A stretch of 10,733 nt of DNA, from assembly GCA_036939355.1 (NCBI GenBank), contig JALLAP010000827.1, forward strand, positions 1 through 10,733, written 5' to 3'. The notes below the pieces were generated by a model that saw only the letters and a program-made list of their open reading frames with translations, was not told where the DNA came from and did not search any database. Below are positions 1 to 10,127 of this stretch, one piece after another. The stretch is from Thalassiosira profunda. Lineage: Eukaryota > Bacillariophyta > Thalassiosirophyceae > Thalassiosirales > Thalassiosiraceae. How positions within the stretch are numbered: the stretch's first letter is position 1; every line of letters starts with the position of its first letter. The position numbers were made by a program, and so were the translations under genes.

Positions 1-187
1 CGGAGCCGTTCCCACTCATCTGCCCCTTGGGCTGCAAATTGCAAAGTGCATGAGAAGACATCACAAAAGGCAAGCTCAGCTTGGCCGGCACAAATCACAC
101 CGGCAACTCTTACCGTCATCGCCCTCTTCTTATTGAAGCTCATGGTGCGCGATTGCGGCGGTCCAGGTCCAGCGGCGTCGGAACGGC

Positions 188-254
188 GGGGCGGGGGGGC
201 TCAGGGGTCGGGGTCGGGGGTCGGGGTTGGTCAGGGTTGGTTTGAGGTTTGGGG
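188..254 (+). repeat. G-rich tract upstream of the REX1-B gene, potential G-quadruplex
   Basis: The plus strand carries successive G runs (188-191, 193-199, 204-207, 210-213, 216-220, 223-226, 234-236, 251-254), with short TC or TT spacers in the central part. This satisfies the usual four-run rule for an intramolecular G-quadruplex several times over. It lies about 105-170 bp before the REX1-B start codon, in the probable promoter or 5' UTR. It is telomere-like only in composition: the GGGGTC/GGGGTT unit is irregular and short. The rest of 1-359 shows no convincing gene. Confidence 0.6.
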
Positions 255-359
255 TCTTCGTGTCCGATTTATGTCCACAGTGACACAGTGTCCGCCATTA
301 TTCATCTCATTTTTCGTCGCGCCTCCTCGTGCATCGACGACCCCGCTCACCGCTCCGCC

Positions 360-1296
360 ATGTCCCCTCCGACCCCCACCTCCGCGCCAGGCCGCGGCAT
401 AGACGTCCGCGATGCCCTCTCCATCCTCGCGGCCCGCACCGAGCGGGGCGGCGAGGATCTCGCCTCCGCGTCGGTGCCAGACGCATTGAAGGAGATGGGC
501 CAGACGATCGACATTGCAAAACAGATGGAGTTTGCCCAGCCCAACGCCGCGGGGTGCGATTGCGCGAAGAATGGCAGTGCAGCTAATGGTGCTGATGCCT
601 CGGGGGCCTACGCGCTCAGCGAGGAGGAGAAGCAAAAGCACGAGGCCATCGTCCGCGAGCGGGCGCGGCGGGGGGAGGAGATCCGCGCCCAGCTGCGGAC
701 GATGGGCGTGGGGGAGTTGCTGGGGATGATCTTCGGGGCGCAACAGGAGCGGGTGGCGACGTACAAGGCGTTCGAGGAGTGAGTTCCACTGCGTGGGGCA
801 TCGTTGGGTGTGCGCTTGATGCATGCACCGCGATTGTTCTAGGAGTGCATGTCACGTGCATCTAACTGACTCCACTTCACTTTGATAATAATACAGCGGA
901 CTGTCCACCATCCTGGCATCGGGCAACATCACCACCTACCCCGCCATGTGCGCCAAGGTGACGGCCACGTTCTCGGTCCTCAGCGATACCATCAACGGCG
1001 CCAAAGCCACGCTCGAGGAAAGATACAACCGGAAGGATATATCAACTGTCATTTGCCAGCTGCAGATATCCGAGGGAGAAAAGCTGAACCTCACGGCGGC
1101 GTTGCATTTGGAGCGGTTGCGGCTGCGGAATTCGGAGCTGGACGCGTCGTTGGCGTCGGGAGAGGGCGACGCTCGAACGATGGGACTGTTGAAGGAGGGA
1201 ATACAATCGCTGGAGCGGAAGATCGCTGGGACCGTCGAGTCGATCAACGAAGCGCTCGAAGAACTGCGCTGCATTGCCGCGGACGAGAGCGAGTGA
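360..1296 (+). CDS. REX1-B domain protein (DNA repair REX1-B family), two exons
   Basis: Exons 360-778 and 897-1296 join across a 118-bp intron (donor GTGAGT at 779, branch-like CTAAC at 862-866, acceptor ACAG ending at 896) to give 272 residues. ATG 360 is the first in-frame ATG of the open frame. Residues about 117-220 match the REX1-B/REX1BD pattern: a helix with an 'AQQERVATYKAFEDG' core, then 'ITTYPAMCAKVTATFSVLSD', then 'LQISEGEKLNLTAALHLER'. The last resembles the conserved 'EEEKLxLTAxLQLxR' of the animal REX1BD protein. The two halves of the motif fall in different exons, which supports the splice. Residues 1-100 are a poorly conserved, probably disordered extension; the C-terminus (about 215-265) looks like a coiled coil. 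The family is named from the Chlamydomonas REX1 excision-repair locus; its biochemical role is unknown. The gene converges on the oxidoreductase gene at 1364. Confidence 0.85.
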
Positions 1297-1363
1297 TTGG
1301 AGAAGGCAGTTGGCTCTGGTGAAAAATGAAGTGCTAAACATTATGTGCATGACTGTTTGTTGT

Positions 1364-4300
1364 TTATTCCTCAATCGGCACAACTCCAATGGCAGTATCA
1401 AACCTGACGGACTGCTCTTTGGCTCCAGCACCATGGTTTCTTTGCTTGCGTGTCGATTTATCCATCTCCGAGCTCGACGATTGTGATGGAGGAGGATCTG
1501 ACTCTGTCGAAAGGTCCAACCCAGCATTATCCCCGGAGTTCTTGCTTGTCGAACCACTATTCCCAGATCTGCTGGAAAGGTCCGCGCCGTTGGGCAGGAA
1601 CTGCGACAGTTTCGACAAAGGCACCGTTCCCTCGGGGAAACGGAAGATTTGTTCCTCAACAAGCCCCGCTGTTTGCAAGCAATCGCTCATATCAGACTCG
1701 AACGAGCTATGTCCACAGAGCGCCACGAGAAACCCCTGCGTCAGATCGAGATGACGCGTTCGACTTCCCAAGGCGCGCAGATTTTGACCATCTGAGGATC
1801 GCAAGGAATCGAGGCTCCTTCTCTTTTTGGTACGTGCCGTTTCCTCTTCCGAAAGAAAGATGTAGAGCGATGCGTCGTCAAGAAGTAGAACTGTTGGATC
1901 CGATACGTGCTCGAACAATTGCAGCTTTGCTCCTAGCTCCCTTCCGAGAGCGAGCGCCGATTCTCGTGTGGGAGTGTACTCATCGACCAAGAAGCTGACC
2001 GCATCACTTCCACGAAAGCATTGGCTCTCTCTGTCTTGCATCAACTTGTCCTCGAGCGCCAGCCCGGTCTTCAGCGTTTCGCCGATTCTTTCTAGATTGC
2101 TGTTGACGGGATCCTCAGCACCTTCTTTGTCACCATCATCCAAGGCAGAATATCGTTCAGTCAACGATCTTTGGGCGTCGTCGCTTTCTGCATGAAGCCA
2201 CGACAACAGGGTGCTGACTGTCTTTTGATGAAGCATGCCGTTTGTACGGTAGAGCCGCAAAAACGCTTCCCTCGCTTCGCATTCGGCCTCATCTTCGTCC
2301 GAGGAGTGAGTCGGCTCTGGAAGCGCGTCTCCATCGCCCAAAATCTGGTATCGAAAGTGCGCAGAGATAGCCTCGCGCTCGGGCAAATTCAATGCCTCTT
2401 CGAAGGTTCCCTTCTCGCCCTGAATCATCCAAACAAGTGTGATTTTGGGTGGACTTTCCATCTTAAGGAAGAAATCAATGAGTTGCACAGCAGGTGTGAT
2501 CCCTGTCCCTTGTACAATGAGACACGCATTCGTCCAGGACTTTGCAGCCAGCTTCTCTAGATAGGGCTGGAGAGTTACGGGCGAGTTGAAACGGGTAAGC
2601 TGAACTGTCGATGGACAGCCAGAGGTTCTTCACAACATAAGTCTTACCTTGGACGCAAGCGGGCCTTTGACCATCATGGGCTTGCCCGGCGTTCTCGTGG
2701 CAAGGAACCCACTCATCTTCCCTCGTGGGACCAGCGAAATAAAAAAGTCGTAGACCGTATCCGTATCGCCCTTGCTGGACTGCGACAGGCTTTTGTTGAA
2801 GAGAGGCAGCAAAGTCTGATGGCTCTTCGAATGTTTCTTGCCTTGGGCGAGGTAGCAGCGGGAAGTATTGTACGGCCGCTCGAACGAGTTCCCATCGTCG
2901 TCCAGAGCACGAAAGATGAAGGTCGAAGTCGGCAGCGGCGTGCCGAGAACTGTGTCCAAGCGAGCTTCAGTCTTGAGCGATAGGCTGAGACGAATGAGGC
3001 ACTTCTCATCCGAGGCCAAGTCTCCTGAGATCACTTCATGCGCAACAACCTTGGCAGTACGAAACACGTGCCCAAGAAGTGCTGTGCTCCGATCTGGTTT
3101 CTGCTGAAAGAGAGAATGCCTGTTGAACACCGAACCTCGCCTTCTCTTCGATTGAGCCACCGTTCCCCTCTTCTTAACACTAAGAGTGGAGCCGATGTCT
3201 TGTCGCTCCATTCTCCATTTGACGAGCGGCCGTAAGGCTCGAAGGGCATTCTTGGAATGCTTATGCCGTTGTCCACCCACGTCGAGCTCTCCAGTGAAGT
3301 ACCTCGTAATGTCGCTGCCCACAGCAAACCGAAGCACGTTGGCGCCGCCGGGATGCACATCAATGAACGAACCAATGTCGATGACGTAGCCATCAACGAG
3401 AGAAAGCGCACTTCCGTGCCGAGTGAGAAAGAGAAAGTTGTCCACAGTCATTTCCGGAAGGTCTTTGTCATCCATGGCTAAGAGGCTACCGGTTCCTTGC
3501 ACCACCGCCTCAACATTGTTGCTTTTACCGAACAGATTTTCCCGGCGAGCGCGGACCTCCGTAATGACGAAGGTCAGGATCACAACAGCCAGCCACGGAA
3601 AGAAGAGGTATTGTTTGATGAACGCGAAGAACTCGAGATCGTAGCCCATGCTCACGGTTCTCGACGAAAAGAACGTGACCTCAACGCTGTCCGATTCGTA
3701 AGGGCTGATTTGCACACTGTAAATGGCAATTGAGTGATGAGAAATGTGTGTCGTCAAGTGACACCGCTAACAAGCTTTTCAACTCACAGTCCTGTATAGC
3801 AGTTATACCAAGCACATCCGGTCAATATCAAGCCTCCACAACGGTGGGAAATGATAACGGCTCGTTCCAGCGCCATGGATTTTGTTCTCTTGGCCAAGGT
3901 CCTTTTCCTCCTCAGCTCGCCTGCCACAAAATTTAGGTGAGACGCAGAGGTGTGTGGTGTCGATTTGCAGAGAGTGCACGTACCAGTGATAACCATGAAA
4001 GCGACGGCCACCATAATGCCCAAACCGAAACTCTTGTGCTTGCTGAAGGTGGAGCTCTCTGCGTCCACTGTCCCAAACGATGTTCCCTCGACCGATACCA
4101 GCGCGGCCGTGACCAGCGTCAGCATCAATCCACCGATGACGCCGACAAGAGTAATGTGGACCCTGAGCCTCCAGGACTTGTGTTTGTAGTACCGCACGAC
4201 GTAAATTGCAATTGGCGCTAAGAACAGCCACGCAATGAGCAAGGTGGCGCCATGCAGGGCAAACAGCCCGGCTTGGGCGGAATCATCAGCGCAGGAGGCG

Positions 4301-6609
4301 GCCACTCCCAGGGCAAGGTTGGTGGTACCACCGGTTCTGCGGGAGAAGCCGTGGGCCGCGTTGGCGTCCGTGGGATTGTAGGCGGCAATGAAGTCGACGT
4401 CGCCCTCGGGCGAAAAGCAGTTGCCACTGCTGCTCTCTCCACCAGAGCACAACTCTGCACGCACAGTAACATACGATCCTTCGTCGGAGGCGCACGAATT
4501 CAGAACCGTCAGATAGTTGTCTCGTCCGCAAACAGGACGCACGTGACGCTCGCCCGGCGCGACGCAGCAAGAGAATGGCCCAGAATCTTTGACTGGCTCC
4601 GTTGTAGAAGAATCATCGTCAATGGGCACAGCGCAAGCTTCCTGAAATACCCCGGCTTCCTCACTGGATTCGCAGAACCATATCGTCGACCCCTTCATCG
4701 CCGTCGAGCCCCAACCAAGGCCAATGTACCCGCCACTAACTCTCTCCAGAGTACTCATTGTGAACACCATGTGGTCCGTTTCTTCTCTCCAACGGACATT
4801 TAGATCGCCATCGAACAGGTCCATCGACCCACCATCGCCAACAAGCGATGCGCCTCCACCACTGCCACCGCCAGACGGCACGATCGCAAACAGGTCCTCC
4901 GGAAACCAAAAGTCTCCATCGCCCCACGCGTCCCGTATCAACTCAGACAGCGTGGGCAGTTGTGCAATCTCTGTGGCGTTCAGCCTTGCACGGTAGTAGA
5001 GCCGGTCGCCATCCCGCAGCCTTGTGAACTGCTCCCGCATCGACGCCTCATTGAGCGGTCCCAATTCACGGTGCTTGCTGACTGGATTCTCTAGCATGGC
5101 GCCCACATAGGCATCTACGTCGTCAACGTTGCCCTCGCCGTAAAGCCCTTCCAACATGTTTGCAACAGCTTCATCGCCATTAGCCACGTCAAGGTACGAC
5201 TCTGCCCTTGTCAGTCCAAACCACTCCCGTGCACCGTTGTACGTCGCTATTCCGTTGTCACGACCCCGTTGCAAGTTCGCAACCACGCTGCCCCCAGTAA
5301 AAATCGTAATGTCGTCGACAAAATGAGCGTCGGGCGCCCTCGTAACATCGTGCGCAAGTCCTCGCAGGACGGTGGCCATTCCCTCCCTCACTCCACCCTT
5401 GGCGAGCTGTGGAACGATCGCTTCGGTCTTGTTCCAAAGGTCCCGCATGAGCATGGGATCCCTCGGCGTCGGCTCCCAATTCTCGTCTAGAAATCTCGCC
5501 AGACCGCTCATCCCCGAGTGGCCGTAGCGGAAGCTGCTTGTCGAGAAAAATACATCGATCGATGCGTCCACATCTGGATCGTATCCCTCGTACGGTTCCA
5601 GAGGATCGCCCAGCACTGCCGGGATGTATTTTGTTTCGTATGTCGCTTGATAAACGGCAATGGCATCCATCCGTGCCGTTCGGAACAGCTGTTCGTCATC
5701 CCACTCGGGGTGCTGTTGCCGATGAAATTCCGCACGCTTGTTGTGGTAATGCAAAAACGTCGACAGCAGAGCAAAGTCCGCAGGGAGCCTCCTCATGGTC
5801 GTGTCCGCCACCAAATACAGACCTGTCTCGGGATCGATGGGGGGAATCCCGGTGGTGTCATCGATTTTCATCTTCCCCCCACTGCCGGTTCGGAGCTTGA
5901 GGTATTCCGGAGAGGAGGGAGGAGCGTTGCCGTAGACGTGATCCATGTCCAACCACGACGTTGCAAAATTGATGGGCTCGCCCGTTCTGCTAACGGTGCT
6001 TTCGTCCTCCTCATCTCCGCCAGGATACGTCCTCGCCGCCCTGTAAAATTCCATCTCCCTCTGCCCCGCCGGACAAAACGGCCCCCTTAATTCAACAAGG
6101 TCGCACTCTATCCCCATCGGCCTCGATTTGTCCGTCTGTGTTGTGCGAGTAATATCCCTCGTTACGAAGTGCCCGAAGCTCATCAAAAGTTGGGACGCCC
6201 GCTCGTTCCGCCGCGGGGTCACTTTTTGGAAGAGCTCCACCAAGATGCGACGGGCCGAGGGCAGGTCGAGGCGCGGGTGGTGCCAAACCGGCTCATCGTT
6301 CTCGTCGCCCAGATCGATGTAGGAGTGCAGCGCGGGGTGGGCGCGGATGCGCGGGGTGCCGAGCGCACCCCGCCTGGGGTAGCGGGGGTGGTTTTGGGCG
6401 CCGTCGTGGGTGTAGTGCGCGGGGAGGTCGGCGCCGGGCGACGCAACCTCGGCGCTGTCCATGATATCCAATCGCTTCGAAAGAGGATAGCAAGAATTAT
6501 GCATGAGAGATGAGATTTGCAAATGGATGCAGTCGGTGGTCTCCATAATAATTTCAAGAACAGTCGACGGCAATGCATCGAGAGGTATTTGCAATTTTTT
6601 GCAAGCCAT
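1364..6609 (-). CDS. Haem peroxidase-DOMON-cyt b561-cyt b5-FAD/NAD(P) oxidoreductase with nested DEP domain (DUOX-like architecture)
   Basis: Exons 6609-3788, 3716-2648 and 2599-1364 (introns of 71 and 48 bp) give about 1,708 residues. Domains, numbered from ATG 6609: animal haem peroxidase, about 50-575 (proximal His364 in 'FRYGHS'; Asn445 in 'NLQRGRDNG'; 'TSWLDMDHVYG' at 217-227); DOMON, about 595-770 with a Cys-rich insert; b561 core with His786, 818, 858 and 922 and a fifth membrane segment at 977-995; cytochrome b5, 1025-1103 (HPGG 1062-1065, second His about 1094); FAD domain (RPYN 1221-1224, GKMS 1273-1276); NAD(P) lobe (GTGITP 1328-1333, CG 1592-1593, 'EEQIFRF' 1612-1618), interrupted by a DEP domain at about 1468-1547; Ser-rich tail from about 1621. 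The splice between exons 1 and 2 falls inside b561, and that between exons 2 and 3 falls between the FAD and NAD lobes, so this is one gene. Likely role: moving electrons from cytosolic NAD(P)H across a membrane to the peroxidase side. Oddities: no signal peptide is visible at the chosen start, and the distal peroxidase residues are replaced. The frame stays open to 6681 without another ATG, so the 5' end is uncertain. Domain calls are firm; the start is weak. Confidence 0.85.
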
Positions 6610-7320
6610 CGCGGTCGACGGCAATTCCAGGTCGACGCCTTCATCAAGAAACAATCGACGCGGCAAGATAAGGTGGTGCACTTACTCCTTCAATCAAACC
6701 TCCAACCCGGGGCGCCAAACCATCAACATAAGTAGCACGCCTCTGCGCCGCTCATCCCCGCCCTCTTTCCGCACACCTCGAATGCCAGCAGGATTTGGTA
6801 CCATAGAAGGGGGGCTACGAGTCCACCGCCGCGCCTCCCAGCGCAGCACCCAGCAAGCAGAGCAAGCAAGAGGCGAGAGAAAAATCGGAGACAAAAAATT
6901 TGGGTGCACTGTCTCAAGACGGTGTCTTAAACTTAGTCCCGGACAGCTGGCGGAACGGTACTGTTCATATCATAACGTACTAATCCCTACGTTGACTTCC
7001 AAATTAATACTGCCGCATTCGGTACTCAGAATTCATGTGCCTCAGTCCGAGCTCTGCGACAACCGTCAAAGCAAGGCAAAAAAGCAGAAGCAAGGTTCTT
7101 GGTTCCGCACAAACCAACGCCACGCCAAAGAGAAGGTGCACCAACCCTCAACCCCAACGTGAGCGCGGCGAGGGGAGGCGGACAAGCCGGCCAAGACACC
7201 CGCGGGATCGGTCGCACCGAAGAGACATCGGCGGAGCCTCAACGGCCGAGCACAAGAAGGACCATCTACCTACAGCCATTGCAAATTGCCACGCCACGCA
7301 ACTAACAACAACGGCCGACC
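6610..7320. promoter_or_regulatory. Divergent intergenic region between the oxidoreductase and HSF genes
   Basis: About 0.7 kb between two genes read outward holds no convincing coding region. It should contain both promoters and 5' UTRs, plus perhaps a missing first exon of the minus-strand gene. On the minus strand a good donor (GTAAGT, first base 6685) follows a short frame with no ATG, so I could not build such an exon. Visible items are an AAGAC-GGT-GTCTT dyad at 6916-6928, a TTGCAAATTGC box at 7279-7289 about 30 bp before the HSF start, and purine-rich AGCAAGC repeats near 6851-6869. I found no clear TATA box. Confidence 0.55.
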
Positions 7321-9938
7321 ATGAGCGACGAGGGCAAGGGCAAGGCCGACCCCGGTGGGGACGCCGGGATGCGCTCCCTCCTCGACGCGGCCATGGGCCT
7401 GACGAACCTCCACGGCGGCGGCGGGGACAAGGCGGCAGCTGCCGAGCAAGAGCCACAGCAGTCCGCCGAGGCCGAGGCTACTCCTGCGGCCGACACCCCG
7501 GCCAAGTCAAAGGCGAGCACCAAGGCCAAGAAGTCGCCCAAGAAGAGCCAGAAGAAGGCATCGCCCCTCGAAGAATCTGCTGCCTCGGCCATGGCGCCCC
7601 AGGGCCAGAAGATGCCCTTTGCTCCATCACGCCCTTTTGACGACCGGATTCCCTTGTCCATGAGAGGCATGATGATGCCCGGCGGCATGGGGATGGGGTG
7701 GATGTCCGACATGGGACCGATGGGGATGATATCCGACATGGGACCGATGGGGCGGCCCTTCCCTCCAATGTCCATGCCAAGCAGTATGCCCATGATGTCC
7801 ATGTCGAACAACGATCACTTCTACCCCATGTCCGCGGAGGAAATGCCCGGCAACCCGATGCACCGCCGGCCGTCAATGGAATCCATGCCGCTGCCCCGGG
7901 GGGGAACGTACCGCTACCCCCACCCGCCGCGGTACACCGACAGGGAAAAGGGGGCGCCGTGGGGACGTCCAAAAGTGGGGTTGCGGTTCGGGGACACGAC
8001 CTCCAAAGAGGCCCGGGCGCTGGACGCCGCGGTCGCCCCCTCGCTGAGCTTCCCCGAGACGTTGTTCCAGATCGTGTCGGACCCGGCCAACGCGGAGATC
8101 GTCAAGTGGCTGCCCCACGGCCGCGGCTTTGTGGTTAGAGACAAGGACCGGTTCGGGGACGAGATTTTGACGCGGTACTTCGACGGGGCCAAGTTCACGA
8201 GCTTCACCAGGGTCAGTATTTTCCTCTGCATCCGGCCTCTAGATCTCGCCATCATACGATGCTAATCCTCTTCTTTGCTCTGCAGCGGTTGAAACGGTGG
8301 CACTTCGAGCGGATGTCAAGGGGTCCGGAGATGGGGGCGTATTACCACAAGTGAGTGGCTTGCCTTGTGCACATCTTGTGCACACTTCTGGAGCTCCATC
8401 CATTCTAATCTATGGCCCCAAAACAGGAACTTCGTCCGCGACCAGCCCGGGCTAGTCCTCAACATGATCTACGGGAAGGACGGGGACGAGGCCATGGACG
8501 AACCTTCGCTGTCCGCGGCCAAGACGAAGCGGAAGGAGCAGAGCGAGAAGCGGAAGCGGCAGTATCAGGCGCGGGTGCCCCGGGACGACGCCGCGGTGGC
8601 CAAGGCGCTGGCGGAGCGCCGACGGAGCAGCGACCAGAGTGCACAGAGCCAGGCGTCGGGCGAGGCCGCGGCGATGGGACGGGTGCTGGACGGATCCAAG
8701 GCAGCGGCGCCGATGCCGCACCATCCCAAGGACTTTGGGATTCCCAATCGGCACCCGGCGCCGCCTCCGAAGAAGGCGAAGCCGTCGCCGGGGCGGATGC
8801 CCCAAGCCGAGGGCGGCATGGCCTTTTGTGTGTGCGGCAACACCATGTCGGGGAAGGAGAGGCGGTGCGTCGAGTGCACCATGGTGAGTGTCGAATGATT
8901 TCTCACCTTACAAGTCATTGCGAGACCCCCTGCTCACTCAGTCGTGGCCGTGGCAGCAACACAAAAAGTGGCAACAGGAAGGCATGGGCCGGAGCCCCCC
9001 GTATGAGAATGCCCGGATGCTCCAGGCGATGCAGAACAGGGAGGACCAGCAGCGATGGGAGGAGATGCAGCGGATGCAGCGCTTCTCTCCCAGTCGCCGG
9101 GCGGCCGAGATGGAGATGNCAGCAGCGATGGGAGGAGATGCAGCGGATGCAGCGCTTCTCTCCCAGTCGCCGGGCGGCCGAGATGGAGATGGCCCTGGAG
9201 CGTCGGCATCAGCAGATGGGAAGCATGATGCCCATGCCACAGATGGAAATGGAAATGCAGATGGAGATGATGCGACGCCGGCAGCAGGAACTCGACATGA
9301 TGTCCCCGTCCGGCATGGAGAAGCAACGGATGATGGCGAGCGGACCCTACCCCAAGCTGCCCATGGCCTCTCCGGGCGGTGGCAGCGGCATGTACAACGG
9401 GAGCGTTGGTGGGATGAGCAGCGACCGAATGGCCTACGCAAGAGCCGGAAGCAGCGGGATGTCATCTATGGGCTCTATGGGCAGCAGGTACAGCCGTGAC
9501 AACTTCACCTCCGACCAGGCCATGATGAGCCGCATCAACGCATCGAGCAAATCCCACGAGGAGATCATGAAGATGGCCGCGCACGACCTGCAGCATCGGA
9601 GTCCGTACGACGGCCCGGCGCGCCGGGCGGCCCTGCCGTCGCTCCCGCCGCCGCCCCTCCCCATGCGGTCGCCGATGGACGACGAGGAGATGGCCCTGCG
9701 CGAATTGGAATCGCGGGCCGCCCAGGGAATGCAACAGTCGCACGCGTCGTCGTCGCAGACTTACCACCAGCGGCCGCCGCCGGAGAGGATGGGATATTCC
9801 CAGGAGCACGCGCGGATGCTGCGAGAATTGGAGGAGAAGGTGGAGGAGGACATGATGCTGCGGCAGCTGGAGGAGAAGGTGGAGCGAAACCAGGCGGCGG
9901 CCGCGGCGGCGGCGAGGAGGGATATGTACTCGGAGTGA
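7321..9938 (+). CDS. Heat shock factor (HSF) family transcription factor, four exons
   Basis: Exons 7321-8211, 8286-8350, 8427-8883 and 8942-9938 join in frame (introns 74, 76 and 58 bp; CTAAT branch-like sites at 8262 and 8405). If the 72-bp duplication around the N at 9119 is collapsed the product is 778 residues; with both copies and no N it would be 802. As written, the N shifts the frame. The HSF DNA-binding domain spans about 243-332: 'FPETLFQIVSDP', 'IVKWLPHGRGFVVRDKDRF', 'FTSFTRRLKRWHFERM' (rebuilt across intron 1) and 'GAYYHKNFVRDQPGL' (rebuilt across intron 2). A basic stretch after it (about 340-360, KRKEQSEKRKR) may be a nuclear signal. The N-terminal arm is Ala/Lys-rich, then Met-rich (114-180). 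Other features are a CxC-x10-CxxC motif (Cys453, 455, 466, 469), a second Met-rich stretch (528-578) and repeated LRxLEEKVE helices at the C-terminus. I see no classic long HR-A/B heptad array right after the domain. Expected role: binding GAA/TTC-type elements in the nucleus; its targets cannot be read from here. Confidence 0.88.
7705..7752 (+). repeat. Short in-frame tandem repeat in the HSF Met-rich arm
   Basis: A 21-bp unit at 7705-7725 recurs exactly at 7732-7752, a 27-bp period. It encodes two copies of SDMGPMG within the Met/Gly/Pro-rich arm ahead of the DNA-binding domain. It probably arose by replication slippage and keeps the frame. Confidence 0.8.
9047..9191 (+). repeat. Perfect 72-bp tandem duplication separated by one N (probable assembly join)
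   Basis: Bases 9047-9118 and 9120-9191 are identical over all 72 positions, with only the ambiguous base 9119 between them. The unit is 24 codons (from 'QQRWEEMQRM' to 'RRAAEMEM') of the HSF fourth exon. Removing one copy and the N restores a single open frame from 8942 to 9938. Two contig ends that overlap but were joined through a placeholder base would give exactly this pattern. A real in-frame 24-residue duplication with a miscalled extra base is the alternative. Confidence 0.85.
9816..9886 (+). repeat. 39-bp-period coding repeat, LRxLEEKVE helix
   Basis: Two near-identical units start at 9816 and 9855 and encode MLRELEEKVEE and MLRQLEEKVER. A more diverged relative (MALRELESR) is encoded from 9690. 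The repeats form a charged, probably helical or coiled-coil C-terminus of the HSF protein, followed by seven alanines. Confidence 0.75.
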
Positions 9939-10127
9939 AGGCCGTAATTGGCAGTCATTCGTATTGTAGTTGATGGGGTAGAAGCAGGGCAATAAGATAG
10001 TATGAGTAAATGTGCTTTAGTTCATTCGGCGTCAATGAAGCAACCTTCTTCTAGCGACTACGAGTATTGTATGTAGCAAGGACAAGACATTGTAAGGTAC
10101 CTTTGAGGCACTGGGGTGGCGTGAGTC

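Follow-up and report, generated by a model that had tools for sequence, protein, structure and literature searches.

Proteins of the animal FRRS1 type belong to the CYBDOM proteins. For the plant CYBDOM protein HYP1, passages of one study describe Met/His ligands in a DOMON domain and His pairs in a cytochrome b561 core, and the protein carries a transmembrane current (PMC10784544). For DUOX, excerpts of the literature report that the peroxidase domain of human DUOX1 is without haem (PMC7794343), that Drosophila Duox possesses neither the proximal nor the distal His (PMC4654585), and that the function of the degraded DUOX peroxidase domain "remains obscure" (PMC4420034). For Seminavis, part of another report names a gene for a haem peroxidase and, separately, one for DOMON (PMC8027222).

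Here we describe a gene of the diatom Thalassiosira profunda, located in a window of 10,733 nucleotides (the whole stretch of DNA that was analysed), in which modules of both kinds are joined to a reductase. We favour, with somewhat better than even confidence, the reading that its product is a single-chain transmembrane electron conduit, which would draw electrons from cytosolic NAD(P)H and deliver them to an outside acceptor, by analogy most likely O2, and that its peroxidase fold, with a predicted haem, would not act as an ordinary peroxidase.

Gene structure, domain content and family

The corrected gene model consists of four exons on the minus strand, which form a single uninterrupted reading frame of 1627 residues starting at 6462. 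Exon 1 is identical to the T. profunda NCBI protein P0001, which begins at the same position. The exons and introns are arranged as follows.

3984 to 6462, minus strand: exon 1, with start codon, peroxidase-fold domain, DOMON and b561 helices 1-3 (100% identity to P0001)
3921 to 3983, minus strand: intron of 63 bases, GT..AG, untranslated in P0001-P0006 and different in length in copy L005
3788 to 3920, minus strand: exon 2, with b561 helix 4
3717 to 3787, minus strand: intron of 71 bases
2648 to 3716, minus strand: exon 3, with membrane helix 5, cytochrome b5 and FAD lobe
2567 to 2647, minus strand: intron of 81 bases
1364 to 2566, minus strand: exon 4, with NAD(P) lobe containing a DEP insertion, and C-terminal tail

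A preliminary description of this DNA had placed all modules in one unbroken frame across two splices. The continuity of the frame stands in the corrected model, but the introns number three rather than two. The 63-base intron had been retained as coding, adding 21 residues at a point where homologues show no interruption, and the last splice, formerly placed at 2600-2647 with a misplaced acceptor at 2600, spans 2567-2647. The start was also moved from 6609 to the ATG at 6462. Residues 1-49 of the earlier protein are non-coding, because a second genomic copy carries indels there (7, 2 and 1 bases, and others) and agrees closely from this ATG onward. Alignment of the two copies also reveals a conserved GTAAGT at 6680-6685, which would fit a 5'UTR intron.

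The following domains and predicted ligands lie along this frame.

4978 to 6411, minus strand: animal-type haem peroxidase fold, PF03098 (Pfam E 2.2e-74)
4294 to 4830, minus strand: DOMON domain (96.6% in a profile-profile comparison with seven relatives, of which four exceed the Pfam DOMON cut-off)
4696 to 4698 and 4351 to 4353, minus strand: predicted DOMON haem ligands M589 and H704, respectively
3557 to 4281, minus strand: cytochrome b561 core of five helices (99.2% in a profile-profile comparison with seven relatives, of which three exceed the Pfam b561 cut-off), with predicted haem His H737/H809 (outer pair) and H769/H852 (inner pair)
3209 to 3496, minus strand: cytochrome b5 domain, H992 (HPGG) and H1024 (Pfam E 3.2e-7)
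2648 to 3076, minus strand: FAD lobe, RPYN, R1151/Y1153
1604 to 2545, minus strand: NAD(P) lobe with insertion, recognised by the motifs GTGITP ... CGHSSFE
1856 to 2026, minus strand: DEP domain within the NAD(P) lobe (Pfam E 3.1e-8; score 33.9 bits, cut-off 32.7)

Thus each module named earlier (peroxidase, DOMON, four-His b561 with a fifth hydrophobic segment, b5 with HPGG, FAD lobe with RPYN and NAD(P) lobe with GTGITP) was found, while the DEP domain had been missed; its score falls under the cut-off in P0002 and P0003. A DOMON domain followed by a b561 core with four haem His, as in CYBDOM proteins, is present. Taken alone, the T. profunda protein gives no Pfam call for DOMON, b561 or the NAD lobe, a Pfam E of only 0.099 for FAD_binding_6, and only weak flavin-reductase matches in NCBIfam. 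The hallmarks of the cytochrome b5 reductase (FNR) family are an FAD RxY motif, GxGxxP and a CG motif. All three occur in the same chain as R1151/Y1153, GTGITP and CGHSSFE, which upholds the claim that the protein supplies its own NAD(P)H module; GTCIAS replaces GTGITP in P0003. An FNR/b5R fold is seen in the structure model of P0006, a model of low overall quality (mean pLDDT 58.7). Among the structure matches listed, where a single domain took up the lists, no DOMON or b561 chain appeared, and this is no argument against either domain.

This domain order is shared by 13 full-length proteins, including those of four named diatoms and six fungal proteins from five species. The co-occurrence of all modules in one protein, proposed as a check in stramenopiles, was therefore found in diatoms and extends beyond stramenopiles, with relatives in chytrid-type fungi. 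Invariant in 13 of 13 are H315, M589, H704, H737, H769, H809, H852, H992, H1022/H1024, R1151 and Y1153. The earlier remark that its author knew of no described enzyme with this full order agrees with our search of open-licence literature, in which no description of a peroxidase-DOMON-b561-b5-FAD/NAD order was found among the matches listed; nor is such a protein named in the available portions of PMC9421330 or PMC6411640.

Two separate genes falsely joined through assembly or splicing choice would also give a long frame. The assembly is fragmented (1366 contigs), and the earlier splice model contained errors. Against this, the identical fusion recurs in the second copy, on contig C967, and in the named diatom and fungal species, including P0003 and P0009, which are labelled as MMETSP transcriptomes and span peroxidase to reductase in one protein. 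We regard the chance of false joining as negligible, and a gene-fusion artefact is ruled out by the second copy together with the other species. The second copy is under purifying selection overall, with a dN/dS of 0.143 over 1619 codons. This value and the complete match of P0001 to exon 1 indicate that the fusion frame is not due to chance. By domain, dN/dS was 0.124 for peroxidase, 0.205 for DOMON, 0.074 for b561, 0.068 for b5 and 0.121 for FAD. It was higher, with few changes each, for DEP (0.454), the last NAD part (0.604), the tail (0.516) and residues 1-20 (0.939).

Active site of the peroxidase fold

In a partial text of PMC4420034, the peroxidase motifs are given as a distal GQxxDHD and an RxxE. 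With RxxE as the motif (PMC4420034), a "REHN" column is rejected as the position of the catalytic Arg. Two positions of the T. profunda gene are central here.

6157 to 6159, minus strand: position of the distal catalytic His, occupied by Arg (R102 of P0001)
5518 to 5520, minus strand: proximal haem-ligand His, H315, retained in 18 of 18 family rows

The T. profunda protein possesses GHxxTRD in place of the distal motif and TxxR in place of RxxE. The distal His is replaced by Arg, the Gln by His and the catalytic Arg by Thr, and neither ester residue is preserved. By the standards of the peroxidase-cyclooxygenase superfamily, the fold and the proximal His are thus present, and both distal GQxxDHD and RxxE are absent. 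Distal His and Arg are both retained in only one of the 16 family rows with data, as against 49 of 49 other peroxidases; P0004 keeps the Gln and the His and has lost the catalytic Arg.

On account of this loss across the family, the T. profunda protein is probably not a self-fed peroxidase, and its earlier portrayal as a chain ending in a peroxidase is not supported. We consider it improbable that the outer end is an active peroxidase that draws on the attached reductase chain and oxidises substrates with H2O2: these residues are changed in the T. profunda protein, and none of the 16 family rows covered has the full D-H-R-E set, which 42 of 49 other peroxidases possess. A fatty-acid dioxygenase of the cyclooxygenase or alpha-dioxygenase type, held reduced by the attached chain, fares worse still. 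Enzymes of this type also require the distal His. That residue is gone here, and both sequence and structure lie nearer to peroxidases, making such an activity very improbable.

Membrane orientation and proposed electron path

The counts of K+R over D+E in successive P0001 loops are 5/0, 1/3, 8/2, 1/5 and 4/2. These charges suggest that the b5/FAD side faces inside and DOMON outside. Some fungal rows show a weaker contrast (P0012, P0018 and P0026, the last from the chytrid Spizellomyces punctatus). The DOMON region has eight cysteines that each occur in 6 or 7 of 13 rows, which fits an outer, disulphide-bonded domain. By a crude hydrophobicity scan, a hydrophobic N-terminus is found in P0004, P0009, P0010, P0014 and five of seven fungal rows, and in none of the four Thalassiosira-type rows (P0001, P0002, P0003 and P0005), so that export of the outer part of ~730 residues is unexplained in the T. 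profunda protein. No signal-peptide exon was found upstream of 6462 when the two copies were aligned: frame-breaking indels lie near the start codon, and no open signal-like stretch was seen by eye.

In the proposed conduit, NAD(P)H would reduce FAD, which in turn would reduce the b5 haem (H992/H1024). Electrons would then cross the membrane through the inner b561 haem (H769/H852) and the outer one (H737/H809), with the DOMON haem (M589/H704) as the next acceptor. The chain may terminate at this DOMON haem or at a peroxidase-fold haem bound by H315. At the latter site, which is devoid of distal His and Arg, superoxide or H2O2 would be formed from O2.

Alternatively, the protein could be a CYBDOM-type ferric or cupric reductase that has acquired an NAD(P)H dehydrogenase and in which the peroxidase fold forms a structural or docking cap. 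In passages describing HYP1, ferric and cupric ions are reduced via the DOMON-b561 unit (PMC10784544), and part of another source reports that oomycetes and Naegleria have FRE proteins to which DOMON is also joined (PMC3591440). Such a cap, however, leaves the invariance of the proximal peroxidase haem ligand across diatoms and fungi unexplained, and we hold this alternative to be doubtful. The protein is a candidate non-NOX source of reactive oxygen, or of reduced iron, at the cell surface of diatoms and chytrids.

Comparison with b561, DOMON and DUOX systems

Among fusions of cytochrome b5 with b5 reductase, such as Ncb5or and the C-terminal half of nitrate reductase, we know of none joined to b561, DOMON or a peroxidase. 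The peroxidase-DOMON-b561 proteins P0013 and P0020 share the three N-terminal modules of the diatom protein and group with it on one side of a branch (83/91) in the peroxidase tree. They differ in that no reductase is seen and that both have kept the canonical distal His and Arg as well as the ester residues. As far as the excerpts of PMC10784544 extend, the DOMON Met/His set and the two b561 His pairs are common to CYBDOM (plant HYP1/CRR) and the diatom protein. HYP1 takes electrons from ascorbate, whereas in the diatom protein DOMON is preceded by a peroxidase fold, and b5 and an FAD/NAD(P) reductase come after the membrane core. The diatom protein thus combines b561 with an NAD(P)H-type reductase of its own, where b561 proteins are described as ascorbate-driven (PMC10784544). 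In DOMON-FRE of Naegleria and oomycetes, DOMON is likewise joined to a membrane reductase with an FAD/NADPH lobe; the membrane core is of the ferric-reductase (NOX) type, and no peroxidase fold is mentioned in the available part of the source (PMC3591440).

DUOX1/2 and the diatom protein each combine in a single chain an N-terminal peroxidase fold, a membrane haem pair (predicted in the diatom protein) and an FAD/NAD(P)H lobe, which in the diatom protein is assigned to the cytosolic side from loop charges only. According to excerpts, the catalytic residues of the peroxidase are degraded in DUOX, as they are in the diatom protein (PMC7794343, PMC4420034, PMC4654585). DUOX is built on a NOX ferric-reductase core with EF-hands; by contrast, the diatom protein uses b561, DOMON and b5, and Pfam returned no match at E<=1 to Ferric_reduct PF01794 or to EF-hand families. 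PF01794 matches elsewhere in the same genome lie on contigs C6 and C408. The suggestion that the DUOX layout was reached independently is borne out in that a b561 membrane core takes the place of the NOX core. More tentatively, the family may represent a DUOX that arose a second time and independently. In this view it would be an ancient eukaryotic family, retained by diatoms and early fungi, whose peroxidase joined an NAD(P)H chain built on b561 and later lost its peroxidase chemistry, as in DUOX; the haem of that domain may have become the terminal O2-reducing centre in a transmembrane wire of five haems and one flavin. The proximal haem His is lost in DUOX and kept in this family. A separate family with the same fold, another membrane chain and a catalytic site that is also broken, yet with the proximal ligand kept, thereby offers a testable outside comparison for DUOX.

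Gene model, domains and paralogues

The best protein match to the fusion gene is P0001 (hypothetical protein ACHAXT_011605 of Thalassiosira profunda), to which exon 1 of the window is 100% matched. Comparison with P0001 and relatives gave a corrected model of four exons, in frame and encoding 1627 residues; P0001 has 1625, and close to the C-terminus the two proteins differ at a few positions.

6462-3984, minus strand, exon 1
3920-3788, minus strand, exon 2
3716-2648, minus strand, exon 3
2566-1364, minus strand, exon 4

The preliminary description had retained one 63-base intron as coding, had ended another intron 33 bases early and had included 49 extra N-terminal residues that are non-coding. 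When that protein, as rebuilt from the window, was scanned against Pfam with curated cut-offs, three domains exceeded theirs: animal-type haem peroxidase (E 2.2e-74), DEP (E 3.1e-8) and cytochrome b5 (E 3.2e-7). The match to the FAD domain was weak, at E 0.099, and no call was made for DOMON, b561 or the NAD lobe in this single-protein scan. The DEP domain (1856-2026) is an insertion in the NAD(P) lobe. In Stephanodiscus triporus and T. minuscula the DEP matches are under the cut-off, at E 2.1e-6 and E 0.0019 respectively. An SH3 match in the NAD(P) lobe of the chytrid relative P0029 exceeds one SH3 cut-off, and that in P0026, another chytrid relative, is weaker and under it. Such DEP and SH3 sites would be natural places for control.

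A second gene copy lies on another contig (C967) with the same neighbouring genes, the whole neighbourhood spanning 1-10000 there, and is either a segmental duplicate or a haplotype that has diverged. The two copies align over 1619 codons, with a dS of 0.277, a dN of 0.0396 and a dN/dS ratio of 0.143. By region, the ratio is 0.124 for peroxidase, 0.205 for DOMON, 0.074 for b561, 0.068 for b5, 0.121 for FAD, 0.037 for the first NAD part and 0.180 for the insertion before DEP; values for DEP (0.454), the last NAD part (0.604), the tail (0.516) and the first 20 residues (0.939) each rest on few changes. A GTAAGT at 6680-6685 on the minus strand, upstream of the start codon, is conserved in both copies and may mark a 5'UTR intron. 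Among the matches listed for queries PF03098 and P0001, the only further relative from this genome was a separate peroxidase (contig C1154, 1-2048), with a start resembling a signal peptide and the distal motif GQFFNHD; no reductase was seen beside it.

The fusion gene is tail to tail with a two-exon plus-strand gene at 361-1296 (DNA_repr_REX1B domain, PF14966, E 3.2e-23) and divergent from a heat-shock-factor-type gene at 7321-9938 (PF00447 in its first exon). In the latter, about 73 bases occur twice, once on either side of a single N at 9119 (9046-9195), probably an assembly scar.

Distribution of the domain order

Residues 600-1640 of the originally described protein, searched against a database of about 5.8 billion proteins, gave 6 matches at E<=0.001 from 7991 candidates scored. 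In the same database, a four-sequence profile gave 46 matches at E<=1e-10 and a 13-sequence profile 72 at E<=1e-20, each from 7990 candidates. Thirteen full-length proteins aligned across the whole domain order: those of the diatoms T. profunda (P0001), S. triporus (P0002), T. minuscula (P0003, assigned to this species by its taxid) and Corethron hystrix (P0010); P0004, P0009 (an MMETSP transcript) and P0014; and those of the fungi Synchytrium microbalum (P0012), Geranomyces michiganensis (P0015), G. variabilis (P0016 and P0029), Paraphysoderma sedebokerense (P0018) and Spizellomyces punctatus (P0026). These fungi are chytrids and one blastoclad. All six Pfam families (peroxidase, DOMON, b561, b5, FAD and NAD) exceeded their cut-offs in P0014, as did three to five of them in the five fungal rows scanned (without P0015). 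In two further proteins, P0013 and P0020, the families are limited to peroxidase, DOMON and b561. A peroxidase-domain tree of 76 rows placed 16 of 17 family rows, P0015, P0013 and P0020 on one side of a branch whose support (83/91) is not strong; P0014 lay outside this group on a long branch.

Predicted haem ligands and the peroxidase site

In the 13-row alignment, the peroxidase proximal H315, DOMON M589 and H704, b561 H737, H769, H809 and H852, b5 H992 and H1022/H1024, and FAD R1151 and Y1153 were all invariant (13/13); together they would mark the putative path of electrons through the protein. H1024 is presumably the second b5 ligand, as in other b5 proteins. The loop charges of P0001 (K+R/D+E: 5/0, 1/3, 8/2, 1/5, 4/2) predict a putative orientation with the b5 and reductase side cytosolic and the DOMON side outside; this contrast is less clear in some fungal rows. 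A simple hydrophobicity scan detected a hydrophobic N-terminus in P0004, P0009, P0010, P0013, P0014, P0016, P0018, P0026, P0029 and P0050, and none in the four Thalassiosira-type rows, P0012 or P0015. The ligand kinds are the same in HYP1, a plant CYBDOM protein with an ascorbate-driven transmembrane current (PMC10784544, in excerpt); by analogy, H737/H809 would form the outer and H769/H852 the inner b561 pair.

In an excerpt of PMC4420034, the peroxidase signature combines a GQxxDHD motif containing the distal His, an RxxE motif containing the catalytic Arg, and a proximal His. The T. profunda counterparts of the motifs are GHxxTRD and TxxR. The family set for this site comprised 18 rows: the 13 full-length proteins were joined by P0005, P0007, P0008, P0049 and P0050, whose sequences stop earlier, so that no reductase is seen in them; P0048 (too short) and P0006 (without the peroxidase part) were left out. 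The proximal His is retained in 18/18. Among the 16 rows covering the distal region, which are related so that counts are not independent events, the distal His is present in six, His and Arg together in one (P0014), and the complete D-H-R-E set in none. By contrast, of 56 other peroxidases, 49 covered in this region, all 49 possess His and Arg and 42 the complete set, which P0013 and P0020 both retain. What had been described as a peroxidase end is thus probably not an ordinary peroxidase. As the residues replacing the distal His vary (R, S, L, F, T, Q), several losses are pointed to.

Comparison with described systems

No description of this architecture was found in the literature searched, for which some result lists were viewed in part; the nearest described are DOMON-FRE proteins (PMC3591440, in excerpt). 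The single modules are already known. As far as searched, three features are undescribed: the module order in one chain, the joining of b561 to an NAD(P)H-type reductase, and a degraded peroxidase fold with its predicted haem ligand kept. According to excerpts, human DUOX1 has lost the proximal ligand too, with no haem seen there (PMC7794343), and Drosophila Duox is without both the proximal and distal His (PMC4654585). The family therefore resembles DUOX in its layout and in its predicted loss of peroxidase chemistry, but differs in keeping the proximal His as predicted haem ligand.
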